Shown piece after piece: positions 1,777 through 31,442 of a stretch of 32,672 nt of DNA; position 1 is the stretch's first letter; every line of letters starts with the position of its first letter. The notes below the pieces were generated by a model, which did not search any database, had not been told where the DNA came from, and saw nothing but the letters and a program-made list of their open reading frames with translations. The stretch is from an uncultured Agathobacter sp. (GTDB lineage: Bacteria > Bacillota > Clostridia > Lachnospirales > Lachnospiraceae): the NCBI GenBank assembly GCA_944381555.1, contig CALWLL010000003.1, forward strand, positions 1 to 32,672, written 5' to 3'. A program made the translations under genes and the position numbers.

Positions 1777-3930
1777 TTAATTATTGTCTATATTTGGTTC
1801 ATTTACCCCTTCATTTTCAGACGAAGCTTCCGTCTCTTGCAGACTCTTTCTTTCTGACCCTGTTTCCGTTTCTGTTTCCGTCTCTGTTTCCGTCTCTGTC
1901 TCTGTTTCCGGCGGATAATACTCTTCTGTAAAGCCATCGGAAAGTTCTGCATACGGAAGAAAATTAAGCGGCGTAAGACCTTCGTTTGCATAGGTCATAT
2001 ACTGCCTCCATATCCACGACGGATAGGTAGAGCCCTTCAAATCATCCACTTTCCTAGGTATATCACAGCCTACCCATACACTGGTTGTATAGTATCTTGT
2101 ATAACCTACAAACCATCCATCCTTATTACTGTTCGTTGTTCCGGTTTTGCCTGCGCATGGCATACCTTCTAGTTTTGCCTCCTGACCGGTGCCTTCTTCC
2201 ATAACAGATTGCAGTACGCTTGTCATCATCCGTGCTTCTGTTTCACCGTAGATTCTCTCGCCCTGCAAAGAAGACTCATACACCACATTTCCATCTGCAT
2301 CCACAATCTTCCTGATACATGTCGGAGTACGGTACACTCCATCATTCTCTAAGGTGGCATAAGCTGCGGCCATCTCTATAGGAGATACACCTTTTGTAAA
2401 GCCTCCTATGGATGTAGAAGGCACATAATCCGAATCCTTAATGTTAGCGAAATGCATATTCTTTAAATACTGTAAGCCCACCTCCGGTGTAATCTCGCTG
2501 TATACCTGCCATGCAACAGAGTTTAAAGATTTTGCCACTGCCTTGCGTATGGTAACTTCTCCGTAATAACGCTCTGCTGCCGGACCATTCTCAATCTCCC
2601 GGTCTACAACCAGTGTATCTGGATTTTTCCCAGTCTGAAAATACGGGGTATACACGCTAAGCGGCTTAATCGCACTTCCGGGCTGACGATAAGACTGATA
2701 TGCACGGTTTAGGGTGTAAAATCCCAAATTCTGGTCGCGGCCGCCTACAATTGCTACGACATATCCTGTTTCATTGTCAATCGATACCGCCGCACCCTGC
2801 ATCTGGAACACGCCCTCCTCATTAAGCTCTGCAAAACCCGCTAAGACGTCATCTACCGCCGTCTGAAGAGCCTCCTGCTTATCCAGTTCAATACTGGTAT
2901 AAATCTTATAGCCTTCTGCGTAAATCTGTTTCTGGCAGACAGAGTATAACTCATCATACTCCTCATCATATTGTTGCTTTTCCTCCTCCGAAGAAAAATA
3001 TTCCCGAAACTCAAAGCCCTGCATTTCCATCAACGCTCTGGTTGCACAATAATATACATATGTATCAACATAATTATTCCGCTGCGGCTTTTCGCTTGGC
3101 GCAGGATTTAACACAATTTCTTCCGCTACTGCCGCCGAATATTCCGCTTCATCTATCTTCCCGTCTTCATACATACTTTTTAAAATACGGTCGCGTCTGC
3201 TGAGTGTATTCTCAATATTTACAATCGGGTCATAGTAGGTCGGACTGTTGGGAATGGCGCATAAAAATGCGATCTGCGACAGGCTTAGTTCATCAAGTTC
3301 ACAACTGAAATAGCCCGTACAGGCAGCCTGAATCCCATAATATCCATTGGCAAAATAAATATTATTCAGATAAAATTCCATTATTTTATTCTTACTGTAT
3401 ATCTTTTCCAATTCGGCAGCGATAAACATCTCCTTGATTTTTCGCTCCCATCTCTTCCCGTTATCCAGATAAATATTTCTGGCAAGCTGCATGGTAATGG
3501 TGCTTCCCCCCTGCGACAACTCTCCGCTCTCCAAAATTGCTTTGGCTGAACGAATAATCGCCACCACATCAACACCATTGTGCTCATAAAATCTTTTATC
3601 CTCCACACTGACCATAGCCGTTACAAAATCCGGCGGAATATCTTCATAATCTACATAGTCAGCTTCCTTCTGCCCTTTGATATAAGAAATCACTTCTCCA
3701 TTGGCATCATATATTGTACCGGTTTGAGACGGAACAAAATATTTCTCATCTGAAGAGCGGACCAGTTCAATGGCCTCCTTACGAAGCTCTTGAATCTTTT
3801 CCGCATATCCTCCATAGTTATAATAAAAAACGATGCCCACAACAACTACTATGAGCAGTATTTGTATTTTAACAAGAAACCAGAAAAGACGATGTTTTTT
3901 CTTCTTCTTCTGTTTTTTCTCTTTTGTCAT
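1777..3930 (-). CDS. Class A penicillin-binding protein (PBP1A type)
   Basis: A bifunctional peptidoglycan synthase that polymerises lipid II (glycosyltransferase family 51) and cross-links stem peptides (transpeptidase), anchored by one N-terminal helix (about 17-38) after a Lys-rich cytoplasmic tail. Seen: glycosyltransferase motifs E-D-K-R-F-Y-E-H (catalytic Glu near 110) and G-G-S-T-I-T-M-Q; transpeptidase motifs S-A-I-K (Ser419, Lys422), S-L-N (468-470) and K-T-G-T (595-598). The C-terminus carries a run of Thr-Glu dipeptides (about 685-700) from a short DNA repeat. I chose ATG at 3930 (717 aa) because AGGAGAGG lies just upstream. A TTG at 3945 would be five codons longer, but that ribosome site would then be inside the gene. 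glcK follows in the same operon. Confidence 0.93.
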   Translation of the reverse strand: MTKEKKQKKKKKHRLFWFLVKIQILLIVVVVGIVFYYNYGGYAEKIQELRKEAIELVRSSDEKYFVPSQTGTIYDANGEVISYIKGQKEADYVDYEDIPPDFVTAMVSVEDKRFYEHNGVDVVAIIRSAKAILESGELSQGGSTITMQLARNIYLDNGKRWERKIKEMFIAAELEKIYSKNKIMEFYLNNIYFANGYYGIQAACTGYFSCELDELSLSQIAFLCAIPNSPTYYDPIVNIENTLSRRDRILKSMYEDGKIDEAEYSAAVAEEIVLNPAPSEKPQRNNYVDTYVYYCATRALMEMQGFEFREYFSSEEEKQQYDEEYDELYSVCQKQIYAEGYKIYTSIELDKQEALQTAVDDVLAGFAELNEEGVFQMQGAAVSIDNETGYVVAIVGGRDQNLGFYTLNRAYQSYRQPGSAIKPLSVYTPYFQTGKNPDTLVVDREIENGPAAERYYGEVTIRKAVAKSLNSVAWQVYSEITPEVGLQYLKNMHFANIKDSDYVPSTSIGGFTKGVSPIEMAAAYATLENDGVYRTPTCIRKIVDADGNVVYESSLQGERIYGETEARMMTSVLQSVMEEGTGQEAKLEGMPCAGKTGTTNSNKDGWFVGYTRYYTTSVWVGCDIPRKVDDLKGSTYPSWIWRQYMTYANEGLTPLNFLPYAELSDGFTEEYYPPETETETETETETETETGSERKSLQETEASSENEGVNEPNIDNN

Positions 3931-4005
3931 ATACCTCTCCTGCAAATATTACTATAGAATATTTTAGTCGCTTTTCTGATTATACGCAAGGTCAAAAAAC
4001 AATAC

Positions 4006-14203: not shown

Positions 14204-14740
14204 TTACTCTACAACTGCATTATATACAATACTTGTTACAACTTTGTCTGCATACCCGAAGTTTAGGGTGCTTGTACCTTTTTCATATACAAGTGCTGTT
14301 CCTGTATCCTCTGCCGGTTCTCCGTATTTTGCTTTTACGTCGTCAACAGAAGAACCAATATAGATACCTTCCTTTGTCTGTACGGTATCATCTTTTAATT
14401 CAATGGTGTATACATAATCCACATCACTGTCAGGATATGTGTTAATGACAACACTTCCATATGTGTATACCTTATCTTTTCCCTGAAATGCACAGGATTC
14501 CGATTCAAAATACTTCGTTGGTTCACCTAATGCCGTTGTAATCGGTTCCATCTTTGCATTTGGAACAATGTCTGTTCCGTTATAGGTAAATACAAAACCA
14601 TCGGCTTTTACATTGTTTGCAGACCCCTGCTGGGTGCTTTTTCCTTCACCTGTTTCATTTGTGTTGCCTGAGTTTCCACAGCCTACACATAAAGCCGCTG
14701 TCAAAACTGCTGCACATAATAAAAACGCTATTCTTCTCAT
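14204..14740 (-). CDS. Lipoprotein, last gene of the Dlt-like operon
   Basis: 178 aa. A signal peptide (M-R-R-I-A-F then a hydrophobic core) ends in lipobox L-C-V-G-C, so the mature protein is lipid-anchored outside. A Ser/Thr/Gly/Asn linker is followed by two related halves, each with L/V-x-x-x-x-G-E-P: I-T-T-A-L-G-E-P-T and D-V-K-A-K-Y-G-E-P-A. Such G-E-P repeats are seen in BamE/SmpA-like and similar binding folds. I chose ATG 14740 because GAAGGAG lies 10 bases upstream; ATG 14773 has no site. It follows the SGNH gene by 38 bp and may dock the acyl-transfer complex or its polymer; that is inference. Confidence 0.8.
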   Translation of the reverse strand: MRRIAFLLCAAVLTAALCVGCGNSGNTNETGEGKSTQQGSANNVKADGFVFTYNGTDIVPNAKMEPITTALGEPTKYFESESCAFQGKDKVYTYGSVVINTYPDSDVDYVYTIELKDDTVQTKEGIYIGSSVDDVKAKYGEPAEDTGTALVYEKGTSTLNFGYADKVVTSIVYNAVVE

Positions 14741-14778
14741 ATCAATTGCTCTCCTTCTCTCATTTTTCATCATTAAAT

Positions 14779-15852
14779 CTACTGAATGGCATTTGCGCCA
14801 AAACTCTTTAGTTCACCATAAGTTTCCAGTTCATAATACTGCTGCTCCTTCATGGCATTATAGAAGTCCACTTTCTCCTGCCAGATTGCAGCATATTTTT
14901 CGTTGCTGCGGTAATCCGTCAAATCATAATTTTCTGTTAACCACGCACCGAAATAGTCCGCCATCTTCTCTGCCCCGCTGGTGTTTAAATGAAGACCGGC
15001 ATCATAGGTATCCTTGGACATATCAAGACCTATTTCATCCTGAAGCGGAATATAATTAATATACTCCACATCGTTCTTTTTTGCAAACTCTGCCACCTGA
15101 ATATCCCATTCATCGTACCAGTGCGGAAATTCGGTCGGCGCTTTTATAAGCACAAGCTCAATTCCCTTTTCCTTGCACAAATCCACCATCTTTTGCATAT
15201 AGCTCATGGCTTTTTCCCCAAGTGTGTAATCCGCAAGCGGCGTCGGATCCGGAAATTCTCCCTGTGGCTTTACGTCCACGCGCATATAGTAACCATTGTG
15301 CGTTACCAAATCCTTAGAGAAAATATGCCGGAAATCATCCTCCGTCAGTTCTGACCATCTGGAGTGATAGCGAAGCAATGGGAACACATAATCAATGAAA
15401 TTCTCATCCTCCATCATAGATGCACGGATATTATCAACCTTTGACTGTGACCATCTCATACCATCAATGGACATGCGGTTATAGGCTTCACTCTGCGGTT
15501 CATCGTATTTTAAAGCCAATACATTAAATACGACAACCTTTGGCGTCTCATAACGAAGTGCATCCTCTAACAGATAATAGGAATTCCAGACAAGCTGCTG
15601 GGCGCTGCCCCGGATATAGCTTGTGATTCCGTAGTTTTCCCACAATGTGATTGTAGAAAAGTTCTCATAGACCTCGCAGTCGCCAATGAACAACACTTCA
15701 TGGTCTGACTCATCTTTATAATATTCCTCAATCATAGAACCTTCTACGATTCCTGTCTGATATTTTGGAACAAGCAACCTCTGTAATAACCACAGACATC
15801 CTATCGTCAATGCAACGACTAAGAGGCCCGCGATAAATCTTTTCCTTTTCAT
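14779..15852 (-). CDS. DltD-like SGNH-fold protein with Cys in place of the nucleophilic Ser
   Basis: 357 aa. One N-terminal helix (about 5-27) anchors an extracellular domain. Block I reads L-F-I-G-D-C-E-V-Y (54-62) where SGNH/GDSL enzymes have G-D-S: the codon is TGC, Cys59. The Asp/His end is D-A-G-L-H-L-N (284-290). The order behind the carrier protein and MBOAT genes matches DltD/AlgX-type partners that receive or hand on the acyl group outside the membrane. AGGAGG precedes the ATG, and the gap to the MBOAT gene is 8 bp. A Cys could form a thioester intermediate, or the protein may be a non-hydrolytic acyl acceptor; sequence cannot decide. Confidence 0.82.
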   Translation of the reverse strand: MKRKRFIAGLLVVALTIGCLWLLQRLLVPKYQTGIVEGSMIEEYYKDESDHEVLFIGDCEVYENFSTITLWENYGITSYIRGSAQQLVWNSYYLLEDALRYETPKVVVFNVLALKYDEPQSEAYNRMSIDGMRWSQSKVDNIRASMMEDENFIDYVFPLLRYHSRWSELTEDDFRHIFSKDLVTHNGYYMRVDVKPQGEFPDPTPLADYTLGEKAMSYMQKMVDLCKEKGIELVLIKAPTEFPHWYDEWDIQVAEFAKKNDVEYINYIPLQDEIGLDMSKDTYDAGLHLNTSGAEKMADYFGAWLTENYDLTDYRSNEKYAAIWQEKVDFYNAMKEQQYYELETYGELKSFGANAIQ

Positions 15853-15860
15853 AGCACCTC

Positions 15861-17447
15861 CTAGAATTGATTATAGATAAACTGTGATGAATCGTAACCG
15901 ACGCCGTATGCGCCAAATACGATAATTACAAGAAACAGTGCTGCCATCATGCCGTAATATACGAAAGGTGGTTTCTGGTACAGTGCCTCTCGCAGGCTTC
16001 CGGCACGAGCCTTATATATACTGGTTCCCAGCACAATGATAAGTCCGGCAAGAAGGACGAGATAATCTGCACCGCTTAACCCGATATCCATCAGTGCCCC
16101 ACTCGTAAATGCTGAAAAATCCCACTGGGTAAACATACTGCCCACCATTTTAAAAGTCAATGGAACATCACGGTAGCAGTCAAACATACGAATTGCACTC
16201 ATCAGTAAAACCGTTCGAATAATCTGGAACACCTCATATGGCATTTTTCCTCTTACTTTGAAGCGCTCATGGAATCTCGCATAGAGAGGCTCTAATTCCT
16301 GCGATATCATAATAACCACAAAGTTCATAAGACCCCATACAATAAAGTTCCATGCCGCTCCATGCCAGATACCTGTCGTTAGCCACACTGCAAAACTGGA
16401 TAAATATACGGGTACGCGTTTACCGATAACTTCTCCAAGGTGCGCTCTCGACCATTTGGAAAGCTTTAACATTGGACCACATACGGAAATCGGATAGAAT
16501 ATGTAGTCTGTAAACCAGGTTCCCATTGTAATATGCCAGCGATTCCAATATTCTTTTATATTTTTTGAAAAATACGGCAGGTTAAAGTTCTCTGCCAGAC
16601 GGATTCCCATCGTTTCTGCTATACCGATTGTAATATCGATACCGCCGGTAAAATCGCAGTATAACTCAAAGGCATAAAAAAGCATTGCAACAAATACAAA
16701 CGCACCGGAATATTCATCCGGGTTTTGTACCAGTTCCGTTACTGCCGGCAGCATTCTGTCTGCAATTACCAGCTTCTTGAAATAGCCCCACAGGATTCTG
16801 CCAAGACCAAAACTTACCGTCTTACCGTCAAACTTATGCTCTGCAAACAGCGTTGGAGCCAAATCTCCATACCGACTGATAGGTCCTTGTACCAACTGCG
16901 GGAAAAAGGACACAAACAGTGCAAGTTTAAACGGATTTTTCTGTGCCTCCTGCTTTCCGCGATATACATCAATGACATATCCCATTGTCTGGAAAGTGTA
17001 GAATGAGATGCCCATTGGGACTATCATATCTACTAACTGCAAAGGCCCTCCGCCTGCAAACAGATTATTGATATTGGTAATTACGAAGTTCGTATACTTC
17101 GTTACAGACAGGATTCCGATATTTAAAAACAAACAAAGCAAAAGCCATCTCCACTTTCCGGCCTTCATTTTTGCTTTATATGCTTTCTTTTCATCTTTGG
17201 AAAGTTCTGCCTTGTGTTCTGCAATATATGCAGACATCTCTGCATTGATATTTTCCATCTTGATACTGACAAGATAAGCAGATATTGTCGTTACCAGAAT
17301 AAACAGAAGATACATTGGATCTGCAAGAAAGTAGAACACATAGCTAAATACTAATAGCAGCGGCCACTGGAATTTCTTGGGAACTATATAATAGCCCACC
17401 AGCACCAGCACCAGAAATGCTATAAATTCATATGAAGTAAAAAGCAT
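15861..17447 (-). CDS. MBOAT acyltransferase (DltB/AlgI-like)
   Basis: 528 aa polytopic membrane protein with about 11 hydrophobic segments. Conserved MBOAT features: P-M-G-I-S-F-Y-T-F-Q (144-153), F-F-P-Q-L-V-Q-G-P-I (181-190), E-Y-W-N-R-W-H (299-305) and the catalytic G-I-W-H-G-A-A-W (His362). Such proteins move an acyl or aminoacyl group from an intracellular carrier through the membrane to an extracellular polymer. The last six residues are F-I-Y-N-Q-F, an F-x-Y-x-x-F motif like the one reported for DltX and MBOAT partners. Flanked by the carrier-protein gene (8-bp gap) and the SGNH gene. The acyl donor is probably the aminoacyl carrier protein. Confidence 0.9.
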   Translation of the reverse strand: MLFTSYEFIAFLVLVLVGYYIVPKKFQWPLLLVFSYVFYFLADPMYLLFILVTTISAYLVSIKMENINAEMSAYIAEHKAELSKDEKKAYKAKMKAGKWRWLLLCLFLNIGILSVTKYTNFVITNINNLFAGGGPLQLVDMIVPMGISFYTFQTMGYVIDVYRGKQEAQKNPFKLALFVSFFPQLVQGPISRYGDLAPTLFAEHKFDGKTVSFGLGRILWGYFKKLVIADRMLPAVTELVQNPDEYSGAFVFVAMLFYAFELYCDFTGGIDITIGIAETMGIRLAENFNLPYFSKNIKEYWNRWHITMGTWFTDYIFYPISVCGPMLKLSKWSRAHLGEVIGKRVPVYLSSFAVWLTTGIWHGAAWNFIVWGLMNFVVIMISQELEPLYARFHERFKVRGKMPYEVFQIIRTVLLMSAIRMFDCYRDVPLTFKMVGSMFTQWDFSAFTSGALMDIGLSGADYLVLLAGLIIVLGTSIYKARAGSLREALYQKPPFVYYGMMAALFLVIIVFGAYGVGYDSSQFIYNQF

Positions 17448-17455
17448 AGTATCTC

Positions 17456-17683
17456 CTATTCGTCACCAAGGCGCTCAATTAAATCATACAACGCCTCTGC
17501 GGAGTTAAAGTTCTCCGGTATGATTTCTTCTGCCGGAATCACAACATCAAATACATCATTGATTTCCGCGATAATAGATACGATATCAAAAGAATCTAAT
17601 ATTTTGTCGTCAATAAGTGTATCACACGTTTCAAAGTCTACATCCGGGTGTAAATCAGTTAAAATTTCTAATAATTCATCCAT
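17456..17683 (-). CDS. Acyl/aminoacyl carrier protein (DltC-like)
   Basis: 75 aa, very acidic, four-helix carrier protein. The phosphopantetheine site is D-S-F-D-I-V with Ser31. D-S-F-D is the form usual for DltC and peptide-carrier proteins (the fatty-acid ACP has D-S-L-D). AAGGAG precedes the ATG, and the start is 2 bp after the stop of the adenylating enzyme gene. It should be loaded by that enzyme and deliver the aminoacyl thioester to the MBOAT protein. Confidence 0.92.
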   Translation of the reverse strand: MDELLEILTDLHPDVDFETCDTLIDDKILDSFDIVSIIAEINDVFDVVIPAEEIIPENFNSAEALYDLIERLGDE

Positions 17684-17685
17684 TC

Positions 17686-19221
17686 TTATTTCTCCTTTTT
17701 CTTTTCTTCATAAAGTTTTGCAAGGTACACTCTATCTAATTTTCCATTCGCAGTCAATGGCATCTTATCAAGTTTCTCTACCTTATTCGGAATCATATAG
17801 CGCGGTAGCTTTTCTTTTAGGATTGCGACCAGCTCTTTGCTCTCTATCTCTCCTGCAAAATACAGTACAATTTTCTCTTTTTCTTTATCGTATATACAAC
17901 ACGAAGAAGTAATCCCTTCTAACAGGTTGACATTCACTTCAATTTCACCAAGCTCGATTCTATGTCCCATATGCTTAATCTGATAATCCTTACGGGACAC
18001 AAATACCAGTTCTCCTCTTTCGTTCCACTTTCCCAAATCTCCCGTGCGGTAAATCAGCTCCGGATAACGGTCATTAAGCGGATTTTGAACAAACGCTTCG
18101 TTTGTTTTCTCAAAGTTGTGGTAATAGCCTAATGTAAGAGAGGTTCCTCTTACACAGATTTCCCCAACCTCGCCTTCTTTTGCGAGTTGGTTATCATTAT
18201 TTAAAAGCAAAATCTCCGTGTTGTGGAACGGACGTCCGACCGGCATCACTTCATCTAACGCAAAGTCCCGGTTTACCTTATAGTAACAGCACATACCGGT
18301 ACACTCTGTCGGTCCATACAAATTGGTAAACTTCGCATTTGGAAGCGTCTCTTTCCAGATATGAAACTGCTTAATCGGAAATACTTCACTGCCAAACGCA
18401 ACCGCATGCAGATACTTTGGAACAACCTTATCAAAGGCCTTAAAGGCTGAAATCATGGTAAGTGCCGATACCACCCAGCACACAGTATTGATTTTATGTT
18501 CATTTAAGAATTCTACTAATTTAATCGGAAACATAAACAGACTCTTTGGCACAAGATAAGTTGTCGCACCGAATTTTAAGGTTGGATACAGTTCCTTTAA
18601 ACATGCATCAAAATACAACGGAGTCTGGTTTCCGAATATGGTATCCTCATTAAATTCCAATACCTCGGATAAGTTTTCAATATAATCAATAACCGAACGG
18701 TGGCAGGCCACAACACCCTTTGGTATTCCTGTAGAACCCGAAGTAAATACAATATAGATAGGATCTGTATCCAGTTGTCTGTCACGGATCTTTGCCAACG
18801 CATCCTCATCAATTTCGTTTTTTACTACTTCATCATAGAGAAGAACTTCTATATTTTGTCCTTCTTTTATAAATGTTTTTGCGGTTTCCTGCGTCGTTTC
18901 ATCACAGATCATTACCTTTGGCTGCAAATTGTCAAAAATAAGTTCAATACGAAAAGCCGGCATTTCTGCATCAATTGGTACATAGAAATCGCCGCCGTAT
19001 ACACATCCGAAAAATGCCGCAATCATCTTTGGATGTTTTTCCATAAATACTACAACCGGCTCATTGTAATATCCCTGCTTATTCAGATAAGAACCGATTG
19101 CCCTGCTGTCATGGTATACCTCTCCAAAGGTAAGCCCCATATTCTCATTTGCAAAAGCAATCTTATCCGGAAGTCTGTTTACTGTACCTTCCAGATATTC
19201 TAAGACATTCGTCTGCTGCAT
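17686..19221 (-). CDS. Amino-acid adenylating enzyme (DltA-like)
   Basis: 511 aa, a stand-alone adenylation domain that activates an amino acid with ATP and loads it on a carrier protein. Motifs: F-T-S-G-S-T-G-I-P-K-G (159-169), Y-F-D-A-C (203-207, Asp205 for the alpha-amino group), L-Y-G-P-T-E (301-306), Y-R-T-G-D-L-G (391-397), G-H-R-I-E-L-G-E-I-E (419-428) and N-G-K-L-D-R with Lys494. Size and neighbours match DltA. However, at the position of the DltA Cys (F-C-G-E-V in Bacillus) this protein has F-G-S-E-V (Gly277), so D-Ala is not a safe substrate call. AGAGGAG precedes the ATG. Confidence 0.9.
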   Translation of the reverse strand: MQQTNVLEYLEGTVNRLPDKIAFANENMGLTFGEVYHDSRAIGSYLNKQGYYNEPVVVFMEKHPKMIAAFFGCVYGGDFYVPIDAEMPAFRIELIFDNLQPKVMICDETTQETAKTFIKEGQNIEVLLYDEVVKNEIDEDALAKIRDRQLDTDPIYIVFTSGSTGIPKGVVACHRSVIDYIENLSEVLEFNEDTIFGNQTPLYFDACLKELYPTLKFGATTYLVPKSLFMFPIKLVEFLNEHKINTVCWVVSALTMISAFKAFDKVVPKYLHAVAFGSEVFPIKQFHIWKETLPNAKFTNLYGPTECTGMCCYYKVNRDFALDEVMPVGRPFHNTEILLLNNDNQLAKEGEVGEICVRGTSLTLGYYHNFEKTNEAFVQNPLNDRYPELIYRTGDLGKWNERGELVFVSRKDYQIKHMGHRIELGEIEVNVNLLEGITSSCCIYDKEKEKIVLYFAGEIESKELVAILKEKLPRYMIPNKVEKLDKMPLTANGKLDRVYLAKLYEEKKKEK

Positions 19222-19250
19222 ATCTATTCTCCTCTTCCATCCTGTGACCT

Positions 19251-19976
19251 TTATTTAAGCAGAACCACCAAATTCTGATAGTCCAAAAGAATTTCCTTCC
19301 CACACGCAAGCAGAGAGGTGCGCGCTAATACCTCTAGGGTATCAATCACACCATCTCCTAATTCGTAAGCATTCTTAAGTAAAGATAATTCTGTGCAGCC
19401 AAGCACGATTGCCTGCGCACGCTTTTCTGTCACAAGATGTGATTTTACTTTCATAAATTCTGCTAACGGCGGCATTTTGCCTGCCTTAATTTCATCATAA
19501 ATCATCTTCATGACCAGCTTCTGATATTCCGCCTCCGGAGTAACTGCTGTCATGCCTAAGCTTTCTATTTCTTTTTGGAAAATACCGCTGATTATGGTTC
19601 CGTCCGTAGCCATGATTCCAACTGTTTGCGCCCCTGCGTCCCTTAAGTGCAGTGCAGTCTCCCGAATCCCATGTATGACAGGAACTTCAATATTTTCTTT
19701 TATTTCATCATGAAAGTAATGTGCTGTCATGCAAGGAATTGCAATCACATCTGCACCTTGTTTTTCAAGCGCTTGTCCAACCTCCAGCATCTTTGGCAAT
19801 GGATTCTCGTCACTCTGACCTAAAATGTATTTCGTACGGTCGGGTATTCGCGGGCAGTTATATATGATCATATCAAGATGCTCCTGATCGCACTCTGCCT
19901 TCGTCATTTTAATGACCAGTTCCATGAAGTATGCTGTAGCCAGTGGTCCAAGTCCTCCAATAACTCCCAGCCTCAT
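19251..19976 (-). CDS. Amino-acid racemase, Asp/Glu racemase family
   Basis: 241 aa cofactor-independent racemase. The N-terminus G-V-I-G-G-L-G-P-L-A-T, the first catalytic Cys in I-P-C-M-T-A-H (Cys82) and the second in L-G-C-T-E-L-S (Cys194) are the two-Cys acid/base pair of the family. It interconverts L- and D-forms of an amino acid; Asp and Glu are typical, but broad-range members exist. It lies between the transglutaminase-like gene (20-bp gap) and the adenylating enzyme gene (29-bp gap), and so probably supplies the D-amino acid used by this operon. The ribosome site AAGGGGA is fair. Confidence 0.9.
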   Translation of the reverse strand: MRLGVIGGLGPLATAYFMELVIKMTKAECDQEHLDMIIYNCPRIPDRTKYILGQSDENPLPKMLEVGQALEKQGADVIAIPCMTAHYFHDEIKENIEVPVIHGIRETALHLRDAGAQTVGIMATDGTIISGIFQKEIESLGMTAVTPEAEYQKLVMKMIYDEIKAGKMPPLAEFMKVKSHLVTEKRAQAIVLGCTELSLLKNAYELGDGVIDTLEVLARTSLLACGKEILLDYQNLVVLLK

Positions 19977-19996
19977 ACAAATAATTTTCCCCTTAA

Positions 19997-21313
19997 CTAA
20001 TTTTTAATCTTTCCGGCAGAATAATCCACCTTGCTCTGAACAGACACGATTGCTCTTTCCGGATAAGCATTTGTATCAAAAATATGACTGTTGTTATGAC
20101 TGATCGAATATTCCTCTAACTCTGCGTCCGTTACCATAAAGAACAAATCTCCTGTCCCTTTTCGCGGAGTAGCGTCCACATGATACCAGCCGTCTCCCAG
20201 ATTTATCAGACTCCAGTAGTGGCTCGAGTGAGAAGTATCACTCTTTACAACATCAATATTCTCAATCCCTGCCGCAGTAAACAATGCTTTTGCTGCCGCA
20301 AAATAATTATAACAGTCACCGGATCTCTCTGTAAATGCCTGATAAGCGCCTTGTACCCAACTAGATTTGTCTGAATCATTTACATATCCGATATTAAGAT
20401 TGGTCCACCGGTAGATTGCAAAGGCAACCTCCATTTGAGACATGGATTCATTGGTAATAACCGACAGAATCTCCCTTGCAATTTGCATTACCGTTTCTTC
20501 GTCCACATAATTAGACGGTTTCTCCTTTACCGTTAATGTAACCGTAACCGATGAGCTGTTTCCTGCTGCATCTGTTGCCGTATAAACCACCTCATATTCG
20601 CCCGGTTCATCTAGGTTTACCTTACTGTTATCAATCGTAAGCGTTGGGTTTTCATCCTCGTTATCTGTAACCGTAATGCCTAAGCGGTAACTTACCGATT
20701 CTCCTACGATAATCGAACTGTCTTTCGCTCCCGTAATCACCGGAGGCTCACTGTCTGTAAGCACATGCATAACTGACTTAACTTCTGTAGAATTGCCTCT
20801 CTCATCCGTTAATACTACTACAACTTCAATATCACCTTTACTTGTTACATCCGGTACTTCTTTATAAGAAACCGTCACATCTGAACAATCGGTAATATTC
20901 GTTACAAATTCTTCTGCCTTTGGCAACTCTCCGGCTTTTGTTGTTACCTCAACCACATCTGCTTTTGGCGCAGCCGTATCACGGATGATAAGCATGGAAT
21001 CAAACTCTCTGTTCCCTACCTTTATAATAATATTGTGGGCTCCAACCTTTTGGGTATCAATAGAAGATACATCTGTTACAAACTCTGCGCCTTCCTCTTC
21101 CACAAACATATCTAAAGTAATCTCATTACCGGCCTCCATAACCACTTCATCTTCAACCGGATTCCATAAAAGAAAACCAAGCAGTAACGCAATCAATAGT
21201 ATTAGTAACACGGCTGCCGAAATCATCAATATACGGACCTTGCGCTCTCTTGCCCTTCTCTTTCTTGCATTTATTCTTCTTTTTTCTATATATCTATCCG
21301 TTGATTCCCTCAT
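19997..21313 (-). CDS. Membrane-anchored transglutaminase-like protein with Ig-like domains
   Basis: 438 aa. A very basic cytoplasmic start (Arg/Lys-rich, 1-26) and one membrane helix (27-50) are followed by Ig-like repeats (about 55-265), the last of DUF5011/HYR type (P-P-V-I-T-G ... D-N-E-D ... Y-T-A-T-D-A-A-G-N). The C-terminal transglutaminase-like domain has the triad Cys334 (S-G-D-C-Y), His365 (S-H-Y-W) and Asp380 (H-V-D-A-T-P). It acts outside the cell, as a peptide-bond hydrolase or cross-linker. I chose ATG 21313: the TTG at 21346 would be only about 6 bases from the transcription start. First gene of the Dlt-like operon. The ribosome site (GGAAAG) is weak, and a small hairpin lies in the leader. 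Confidence 0.85.
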   Translation of the reverse strand: MRESTDRYIEKRRINARKRRARERKVRILMISAAVLLILLIALLLGFLLWNPVEDEVVMEAGNEITLDMFVEEEGAEFVTDVSSIDTQKVGAHNIIIKVGNREFDSMLIIRDTAAPKADVVEVTTKAGELPKAEEFVTNITDCSDVTVSYKEVPDVTSKGDIEVVVVLTDERGNSTEVKSVMHVLTDSEPPVITGAKDSSIIVGESVSYRLGITVTDNEDENPTLTIDNSKVNLDEPGEYEVVYTATDAAGNSSSVTVTLTVKEKPSNYVDEETVMQIAREILSVITNESMSQMEVAFAIYRWTNLNIGYVNDSDKSSWVQGAYQAFTERSGDCYNYFAAAKALFTAAGIENIDVVKSDTSHSSHYWSLINLGDGWYHVDATPRKGTGDLFFMVTDAELEEYSISHNNSHIFDTNAYPERAIVSVQSKVDYSAGKIKN

Positions 21314-21358
21314 CTTACTTTCAACTTTCCGGGCATAAGCCCCCAATTATCACAGTAG

Positions 21359-21387
21359 ATTATACCCCCGACACTTTTGTTCGTCAA
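21359..21387 (-). promoter_or_regulatory. Strong sigma-A promoter of the racemase/Dlt-like operon
   Basis: Minus strand TTGACG (382-387 of the 21-kb block, i.e. 21382-21387), exactly 17 bp, TATAAT (21359-21364). The start would be near 21352, giving a 39-base leader to ATG 21313. It lies between the MATE gene stop and the transglutaminase-like gene, and so marks the head of the seven-gene unit. Confidence 0.75.
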
Positions 21388-30731: not shown

Positions 30732-31442
30732 TCATCTGCAATAATCCGCTTCATAAATATTCAGCCGTTCTGCTGTATCAATAATTAACACGCAGTCTTC
30801 TTCCACCTTTTTCATAATCTCATGCATACAATCCTTCGGAATCGCAACACACCCCGCCGTATATTCTGTCTCTTCGGATGTACAATGCAAAAACACCGCA
30901 GACCCAAGTCCCGGAATTCCTTCTTTATTGTAGCTGGTTGCCAGAACATAATCATAAAGTTCCTCATATTCACAAATATGTTCGGCAGTATTCCAATCAG
31001 GCTCTACTTCCTTGGTGGTTACAAATTGATTATAATAGTTTGAATGAATATCATCAACCCAGAAATGATTTTCGTCTACCTGAATATAATCTATTTTTGC
31101 TCCCGGATTTTCAAGTATCCCAAATGCTTTGGTAAAATAGAATCTTCCTATCGGTGTTTTCATGTCGCCTTCTTTTGTTTTTCCAAGCCCGTTCTTCCCT
31201 ATTACCGCAGGAACAGATAAAATTTCTGTCCATTCCCTCCTCCCGTCTTTTTCATAAAAGGATAAAACGGCTTCTGTTTCTGTCACAGCAACAATAATCA
31301 GTTGGTCTGTATTTGCAGATACATCTAACTCATCTAACCAATCTGCATCTTGTTTTTTTAAGTTTACTTCCTGATAAGCAATATGCACAATTAAAATAAT
31401 TAGTATAAACAACATTACCTTTATTACATTCCGGCTTTTCAT
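30732..31442 (-). CDS. L,D-transpeptidase (YkuD domain)
   Basis: 236 aa. An N-terminal signal anchor (about 6-22) and an extracellular YkuD domain: T-P-I-G-R-F-Y (96-102), H-F-W-V-D-D-I-H, and the catalytic His186/Cys198 pair in H-C-T-x8-G-C-V-A-I. L,D-transpeptidases make 3-3 cross-links or attach proteins to peptidoglycan; some act as carboxypeptidases. The short spacer between helix and domain suggests a membrane-bound form without a wall-binding repeat. First gene of the unit with DUF6440 and Crp/Fnr. Confidence 0.9.
   Translation of the reverse strand: MKSRNVIKVMLFILIILIVHIAYQEVNLKKQDADWLDELDVSANTDQLIIVAVTETEAVLSFYEKDGRREWTEILSVPAVIGKNGLGKTKEGDMKTPIGRFYFTKAFGILENPGAKIDYIQVDENHFWVDDIHSNYYNQFVTTKEVEPDWNTAEHICEYEELYDYVLATSYNKEGIPGLGSAVFLHCTSEETEYTAGCVAIPKDCMHEIMKKVEEDCVLIIDTAERLNIYEADYCR

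Follow-up and report, generated by a model that had tools for sequence, protein, structure and literature searches.

Which substrate is carried to the cell surface by an operon that resembles the Dlt system for D-alanylation and also encodes its own racemase and a transglutaminase-like protein? The question is raised by a stretch of 32,672 nucleotides (hereafter the window) of contig CALWLL010000003.1 from an uncultured Agathobacter sp. (GCA_944381555.1; 2.31 Mb in 66 contigs), in which an initial annotation had placed seven genes in one Dlt-like aminoacyl-transfer operon. That description, of a Dlt-like system with its own racemase, is borne out by family scores, conserved catalytic residues and the conservation of the gene set. 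The acidic D-amino acid that the annotation had suggested is also the best-supported candidate substrate, given Lys209 in the ligase pocket and the aspartate-type racemase. We assign a probability of roughly one half to the reading that the operon is a Dlt-like envelope-acylation system that would install an acidic D-amino acid, most likely D-aspartate (D-Asp). Confidence is moderate that the substrate is acidic and likewise moderate that it has the D-form; the preference for Asp over glutamate (Glu) is weak, and D-Asp, D-Glu and another acid would be inseparable by sequence.

All seven open reading frames lie on the minus strand between 21387 and 14204, behind a near-consensus promoter. They were located where they had been noted before, with the same tight spacing (20, 29, 2, 8, 8 and 5 bp in order; the last gap becomes 38 bp if the lipoprotein starts at ATG 14740). 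The promoter and the genes, in operon order, are:

21359..21387, minus strand: promoter TTGACG-17-TATAAT, matching the consensus at 11 of 12 positions, both hexamers kept in the related locus L053
19997..21346, minus strand: transglutaminase-like protein with Ig-like/Rib domains and, by sequence reading, a membrane anchor at the N-terminus (PF01841, PF16403, PF08428)
19251..19976, minus strand: aspartate/glutamate-type two-Cys racemase (TIGR00035, NF052483, 1jfl; invariant C82, C194, R47 and K164)
17686..19221, minus strand: stand-alone amino-acid adenylation ligase, DltA-like, with pocket DAKWAGLGM and K494 (TIGR01733; pocket columns)
17456..17683, minus strand: carrier protein, DltC-like, with phosphopantetheine site S31 (family scores; conserved Ser)
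15861..17447, minus strand: membrane-bound O-acyltransferase (MBOAT) with C-terminal FIYNQF and, by sequence reading, two additional hydrophobic segments (PF03062; H305, H362, Y525)
14779..15852, minus strand: predicted transferase of SGNH fold, membrane-anchored, in which Cys59 takes the place of the nucleophile (Cys-Gly-Asn-His; fold match; C59, G82, N125, H288)
14204..14773, minus strand: lipoprotein with lipobox LCVGC (read from sequence), likely start 14740, without a known family (invariant Cys94)

Pfam cut-offs were exceeded by Transglut_core, Asp_Glu_race, AMP-binding and MBOAT. The ligase, which is the sole DltA-like match in the genome, passed TIGR01733 (320.2 bits, cut-off 317.4) and stayed below the DltA model TIGR01734 (272.8 against 559.85). 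The carrier of 75 amino acids scored just under its Pfam cut-off (20.2 vs 20.8 bits) and reached 25.9 bits against the DltC cut-off of 68; its phosphopantetheine Ser is kept in 73 of 73 aligned rows.

In DltA, the cavity for the methyl group of D-Ala is formed by Leu, Met and Cys268 (PMC8972799). When the window ligase was aligned to a DltA-like protein of locus L133, these columns were found to hold Ala206, Lys209 and Gly277, which argues against D-Ala; the L133 reference has DltA structures as its best PDB matches, yet is itself below the DltA cut-off. Phe276 had been considered as the equivalent of Cys268 and was dropped, as alignments with LgrA and a DltA place Gly277 there. Lys209 corresponds to position 239 of nonribosomal peptide synthetases (NRPS) and is Lys in 85 of 88 ligase rows and Arg in two, with Asp205 and Lys494 present in 87 rows each; the whole pocket string reads DAKWAGLGM in 63 rows and DAKWGGLGV in 10. 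A Lys at position 239 suggests that the substrate has an acidic side chain. Among NRPS, we take this Lys to be a mark of Glu-activating domains only, and the literature search returned no paper with that code.

The racemase has the family score (TIGR00035, 213.9 bits against 93.1) and both catalytic Cys of an aspartate/glutamate two-Cys racemase. It also scored 205.4 against 190 for the cysteate racemase model NF052483. Among solved structures its closest relatives are aspartate racemases, with 1jfl at the top, and C82, C194, R47 and K164 are found in all 56 rows. Arg47 and Lys164 align with a pair that we presume to bind Asp; no supporting paper was returned by the literature search.

The MBOAT (528 amino acids) scored 141.3 bits against the DltB cut-off of 375, and DltB structures align to residues 144-382 only; beyond them are two further hydrophobic stretches, identified by reading, and the tail FIYNQF. 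H305, H362 and the tail Y525 are present in 109 of 109 rows. With the invariant His, an FxYxxF shuttle and an SGNH-fold partner encoded beside it, the protein has the marks of an MBOAT-SGNH acyltransferase. PatA auto-acetylates the Tyr of its C-terminal shuttle tail, and DltX is a separate protein with the shuttle motif FXYXXF in the carrier-fed Dlt pathway; in other MBOAT-SGNH pathways the motif is fused and a carrier is lacking, fused shuttles being tied to acyl-CoA donors (PMC12148441). The window operon has a carrier and a fused shuttle motif together, a combination absent from the excerpted account in PMC12148441. No separate DltX was found inside the operon, where gaps of 2-38 bp leave no space for one; the search for DltX did not extend to the rest of the genome.

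At E 0.001, the 357-amino-acid SGNH protein matched none of the Pfam or NCBIfam families, DltD included. Its structural model (35-row alignment; mean predicted local distance difference test score, pLDDT, 92.6) begins with a helix (residues 2-27), by its sequence a likely membrane anchor; its fold matches include GDSL lipases/SGNH hydrolases, E. coli TesA and DltD. Template modelling (TM) scores were up to 0.71 by target length and only 0.25-0.39 by query length; the match to DltD 6pfx had E 1.4e-4 and TM 0.36-0.38. Cys59 begins the helix after strand 53-56 of the predicted fold, and at this position all 91 close rows have Cys instead of the nucleophile Ser, so that the catalytic Ser is absent. 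Gly82 and Asn125 are kept in all 91 rows, His288 in 90 and Asp284 in 87. A wider set of 125 SGNH-like frames was drawn from 121 sources: Cys occurs in 90, Ser in 31 (mostly more distant relatives) and Gly in one, while in three the motif could not be read. Of the 90 Cys types, 77 have a ligase within 7 kb, vs 8 of the 31 with Ser. The remaining 13 Cys types, in which no ligase was called, comprise four at contig ends (L068, L100, L127, L131), two in which a ligase with a broken frame is present by tblastn (L067, L092) and seven without ligase: L090 and L120, which keep the racemase, L045, which keeps the carrier, and L042, L113, L115 and L117. In the last three, where the vicinity yielded no ligase, the Cys-type SGNH and lipoprotein genes stand amid several genes of transglutaminase type.

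In the proposed mechanism, the racemase would convert L-Asp to D-Asp, and the ligase would adenylate D-Asp and load it on the carrier. The MBOAT would move it from the carrier to the Tyr of its own FIYNQF tail, from which it would be handed to Cys59 of the SGNH enzyme; the acyl-Cys enzyme would then transfer it to a surface polymer, the putative acceptor. The transglutaminase-like protein and the lipoprotein would work on the outer side, with this product or its holder as their target. By homology, passage through the tail Tyr and the SGNH Cys is the most likely acyl route. The genome encodes five proteins of the sulfatase family, which includes lipoteichoic acid synthases, and glycerol-phosphate polymers are therefore possible acceptors.

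The distribution of the set was assessed in the named genome collection, where at least 577 stretches encode a relative of the SGNH protein; the set is thus not rare. The best 80 of these were kept and, being the most similar ones, give gene shares that are not representative of all relatives. They are mostly from Clostridia, and Paenibacillus, Cohnella and Gottfriedia also occur. Long flanks on both sides were available for 56 loci, in which genes were counted on the same strand within the counted span: the transglutaminase was present in 54, the racemase in 36, the ligase in 53, the carrier in 54, the MBOAT in 54 and the lipoprotein in 55. All seven genes occur in 33 of the 56 and all except the racemase in 51, so the gene set is not a product of chance. 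The initial annotation had named a general lack of the racemase and transglutaminase genes in homologous operons as a finding that would speak against it, and these counts show the opposite. The gene order, which it had proposed to look for in other genomes, recurs in L033, L034 (which ends before the lipoprotein) and L035, and is rearranged in L039, L040, L041 and L044. Among the matches listed, L053, from a Lachnospiraceae metagenome genome, is the closest locus (ligase identity 95%).

When 299 genomes were sampled evenly across the phylum, the SGNH protein was matched in four at E 1e-40, its own genome included, and besides that genome only G342 scores like the Cys type. Within the genus, 25 of 62 genomes match, and 11 of them, again counting its own, reach at least E 1e-130; among 98 genomes around G000, 13 others match at 47-89% identity. 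The sparse matches in the phylum and genus samples, together with the shared gene content, indicate that the set is patchy but coherent. No relative was found in the viral contigs searched, and no description of the gene set was found among the listed titles and abstract openings of the open-licence literature, with subscription papers mostly outside. A GNAT gene is present in L050.

Some relatives carry other helper genes. In three genomes of the window's genus, an asparagine synthetase lies inside a racemase-type operon, beside the racemase and ligase (L039:4483-6321, L040:11075-12913, L041:4104-5945); the L039 protein, the only one of the three scanned, scored 438.9 bits for TIGR01536 (cut-off 267.1). 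In L. lactis, racD, encoded with the D-Asp ligase, makes D-Asp, and AsnH amidates it (PMC4155827). Matches to 'AsnB' of about 472 amino acids in several loci were rejected, with at most 25% identity and none of the 80 loci reaching the 35% limit. Those in L075 and L107 are presumably amidophosphoribosyltransferases, judging by reading.

A sister branch of the ligase (L159, L161, L163, L165, L167, L172) has the pocket DVKW[ML]SLCN, an MBOAT, a Ser-type SGNH protein, a gene for a decarboxylase-like protein and no racemase; L169 has a similar layout. These decarboxylase-like proteins are of a pyridoxal phosphate (PLP)-dependent type and resemble diaminopimelate and ornithine decarboxylases. Three of the seven were scanned and matched (L161, L163, L169) and the rest were identified by eye; for two of those scanned, the best NCBIfam match was TIGR03099 (exosortase-A systems), below cut-off. 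A carrier was called in L159, L161, L163, L165 and L169; L167 and L172 had none called. In macrolactam synthesis, decarboxylation of 3-methylaspartate by VinO has to wait until VinN has loaded it on a carrier (PMC11284099). Both helpers, asparagine synthetase and decarboxylase, agree with the pocket Lys and prove nothing. At L036:2043-3941, a gamma-glutamyltransferase lipoprotein adjoins a ligase with the pocket DAKWFVLGI, and no racemase is present; the frame at the equivalent position of L037 is cut. The sister operons, the pocket Lys, the Ser-to-Cys change in the SGNH enzyme and the shuttle motif fused to the MBOAT are observations beyond the initial annotation.

A bolder version of the mechanism, which we regard as speculative, starts from the thioester that a Cys enzyme would carry; this would favour transfer to amines and hence amide products. 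The operon would then represent a distinct class of envelope acylation, in which a carrier-loaded acidic D-amino acid passes via the MBOAT, its Tyr and a Cys-thioester SGNH enzyme to an amine. The surface would gain negative charge or, where the asparagine synthetase is present, D-Asn, and the transglutaminase-like protein would edit or cross-link the product. The sister operons, with a ligase of the same fold, would install a decarboxylated group, for example beta-alanyl or one like gamma-aminobutyric acid.

The transglutaminase-like protein belongs to the superfamily by fold family and by its Cys-His-Asp triad (C345/H376/D391), which is complete in 102 of 102 rows. Its start is more likely at ATG 21313, as TTG 21346 is only 13 bases behind the -10 box. 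For the lipoprotein, ATG 14740 is the likely start, since it is preceded by a purine-rich stretch like a ribosome-binding site. No known family was found for the lipoprotein in Pfam and NCBIfam scans, although Glu90, Cys94, Gly98, Asp129 and Glu135 are invariant in 37 of 37 rows, the window's included. Its model (pLDDT 84.4) has a predicted two-repeat fold; fold matches were weak (best E 1.2e-3), and an identity based on fold was dropped. The constancy of the two proteins suggests that both belong to the pathway and does not indicate their role.

The same machine might handle another acid instead of D-Asp, such as D-Glu, L-Asp, L-Glu or cysteate, and this is a possible, though less probable, explanation. 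A Lys at position 239 would suit any side-chain acid, its link to Glu being presumed from NRPS codes for which no paper was found; the racemase passes the aspartate/glutamate and cysteate models alike, and the L036 gamma-glutamyltransferase lipoprotein stands beside a ligase with a different pocket. Asp is favoured over these by the solved relatives of the racemase, by its invariant Arg47 and Lys164, if they bind Asp as we presume, and by the asparagine synthetase in three relatives. Ordinary D-alanylation, with a diverged Dlt operon still loading D-Ala on teichoic acid, appears very unlikely. The order of ligase, carrier, MBOAT and SGNH protein is as we take it to be in Dlt, the genome offers no second DltA match, and its five sulfatase-family proteins would fit; but ligase, carrier and MBOAT lie far under the Dlt cut-offs, DltD is not matched, Ala, Lys and Gly line what in DltA is the methyl cavity, and an aspartate-type racemase is nearby in 36 of 56 loci. 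A canonical Dlt operon was rejected on the family cut-offs and pocket residues.

Several observations weigh against an operon dedicated to an acidic D-amino acid. To our knowledge the ligase pocket as a whole fits no NRPS code, and the racemase passes a cysteate racemase model. The sister operons retain the pocket Lys yet carry a decarboxylase, and the SGNH protein of L044 (L044:9968-11032) keeps the Cys and has Asp in place of the near-invariant His. The racemase is absent from 20 of the 56 full-flank loci, as counted, and 7 of the 36 counted sit away from the usual place. L090 and L120 keep the transglutaminase, racemase, MBOAT and Cys-type SGNH genes, with no ligase match between racemase and MBOAT and no runs of N. 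Racemases do occur within 8 kb of 54 of 60 untruncated ligases with the DAKWAGLGM pocket vs 1 of 16 with other pockets, but the Fisher p of 2.8e-10 counts sequences and ignores ancestry. On a quick tree, in which long branches are possibly misplaced, the racemase changes eight times, and of six independent pairs about two agree, none oppose and four are silent; the tree-corrected link is not significant (median p 0.5) and was rejected as independent evidence. The racemase may be a passenger that serves peptidoglycan or other metabolism, with the ligase taking an L-amino acid. We hold this to be unlikely, as 29 of the 36 racemases precede the SGNH gene by the usual distance. In four loci of Paenibacillus/Cohnella (L103, L111, L114, L121), a divergent racemase is separated from the ligase by about 1.1-1.2 kb, and three of these loci have another racemase on the same strand. 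Also against it, the window genome has a second racemase of the same family elsewhere. Of six genomes with the DAKWAGLGM pocket and no racemase at the locus, five encode a protein like aspartate racemase at another site (E at most 2.7e-24; one with internal stops, one matched over part of its length), vs none at that level in four genomes with the DAKWGGLGV pocket, a comparison that favours the link of racemase and pocket. The acceptor may also differ: a small aminoacyl product could be exported, or a surface protein such as the lipoprotein acylated, in place of a teichoic acid or polysaccharide. Neither the lipoprotein nor the transglutaminase is less constant than the ligase, and the invariant Cys94, Glu90 and other residues of the lipoprotein would fit; we nevertheless doubt it, as the MBOAT-SGNH pairs named in the excerpt of PMC12148441 acylate envelope polymers.

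Among known systems, the operon reads as a variant of MBOAT-SGNH envelope acylation that would work like Dlt, yet is not a Dlt member. Dlt (DltA, DltC, DltB, DltX, DltD) likewise has a stand-alone ligase, a separate carrier, an MBOAT and an SGNH-fold transferase in one operon. The window operon differs in its sub-threshold scores for ligase, carrier and MBOAT, the missing DltD match, the rebuilt substrate cavity, an MBOAT that bears the shuttle itself, an SGNH enzyme with Cys instead of Ser, and the added racemase, transglutaminase and lipoprotein. PatA/PatB and other MBOAT-SGNH O-acetyltransferases share the fused C-terminal shuttle Tyr and the SGNH partner (PMC12148441), whereas the window MBOAT is fed by a ligase and carrier and its SGNH enzyme has Cys. 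The racD-aslA-AsnH route of L. lactis to D-Asp in peptidoglycan also has an aspartate racemase in one operon with a ligase, and an asparagine synthase amidates D-Asp (PMC4155827), but the ligase is an ATP-grasp enzyme acting on peptidoglycan precursors, and carrier, MBOAT and SGNH enzyme are lacking. In VinN/VinL/VinO, an Asp-type amino acid is loaded by a stand-alone ligase on a stand-alone carrier and, as may apply to the sister operons, a PLP enzyme decarboxylates the carrier-bound amino acid (PMC11284099); in contrast, that pathway serves antibiotic synthesis, and the window operon has no such decarboxylase.

In the excerpts of the cited papers, D-Ala is the only worked-out aminoacyl decoration of the carrier-MBOAT-SGNH type. 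The present operon, with its different pocket, own racemase and Cys enzyme, is widespread in Bacillota. If it functions as proposed, amino acids other than D-Ala would also determine the charge and chemistry of the surface in many bacteria of gut and soil. The acyl-shuttle model could be tested cleanly here, as trapping a thioester on the SGNH enzyme is expected to be easier than trapping an ester.

As for the strong promoter of the initial annotation, the near-consensus site is present, with identical -35 and -10 hexamers upstream of the L053 operon, the nearest relative, but 33 promoter-like sites were observed in 9 kb vs 23.2 expected, which makes the site weak evidence by itself. The operon is flanked upstream by a MATE transporter and a ThiF-type gene, and downstream by a PAP2-like gene and a HAD-like gene (the latter by reading). 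L053 shares these flanks, with one additional gene between, and L054 to L056 lack them. Further wall genes in the window encode a transglycosylase-transpeptidase penicillin-binding protein (1777-3945) and a YkuD L,D-transpeptidase (30732-31442).

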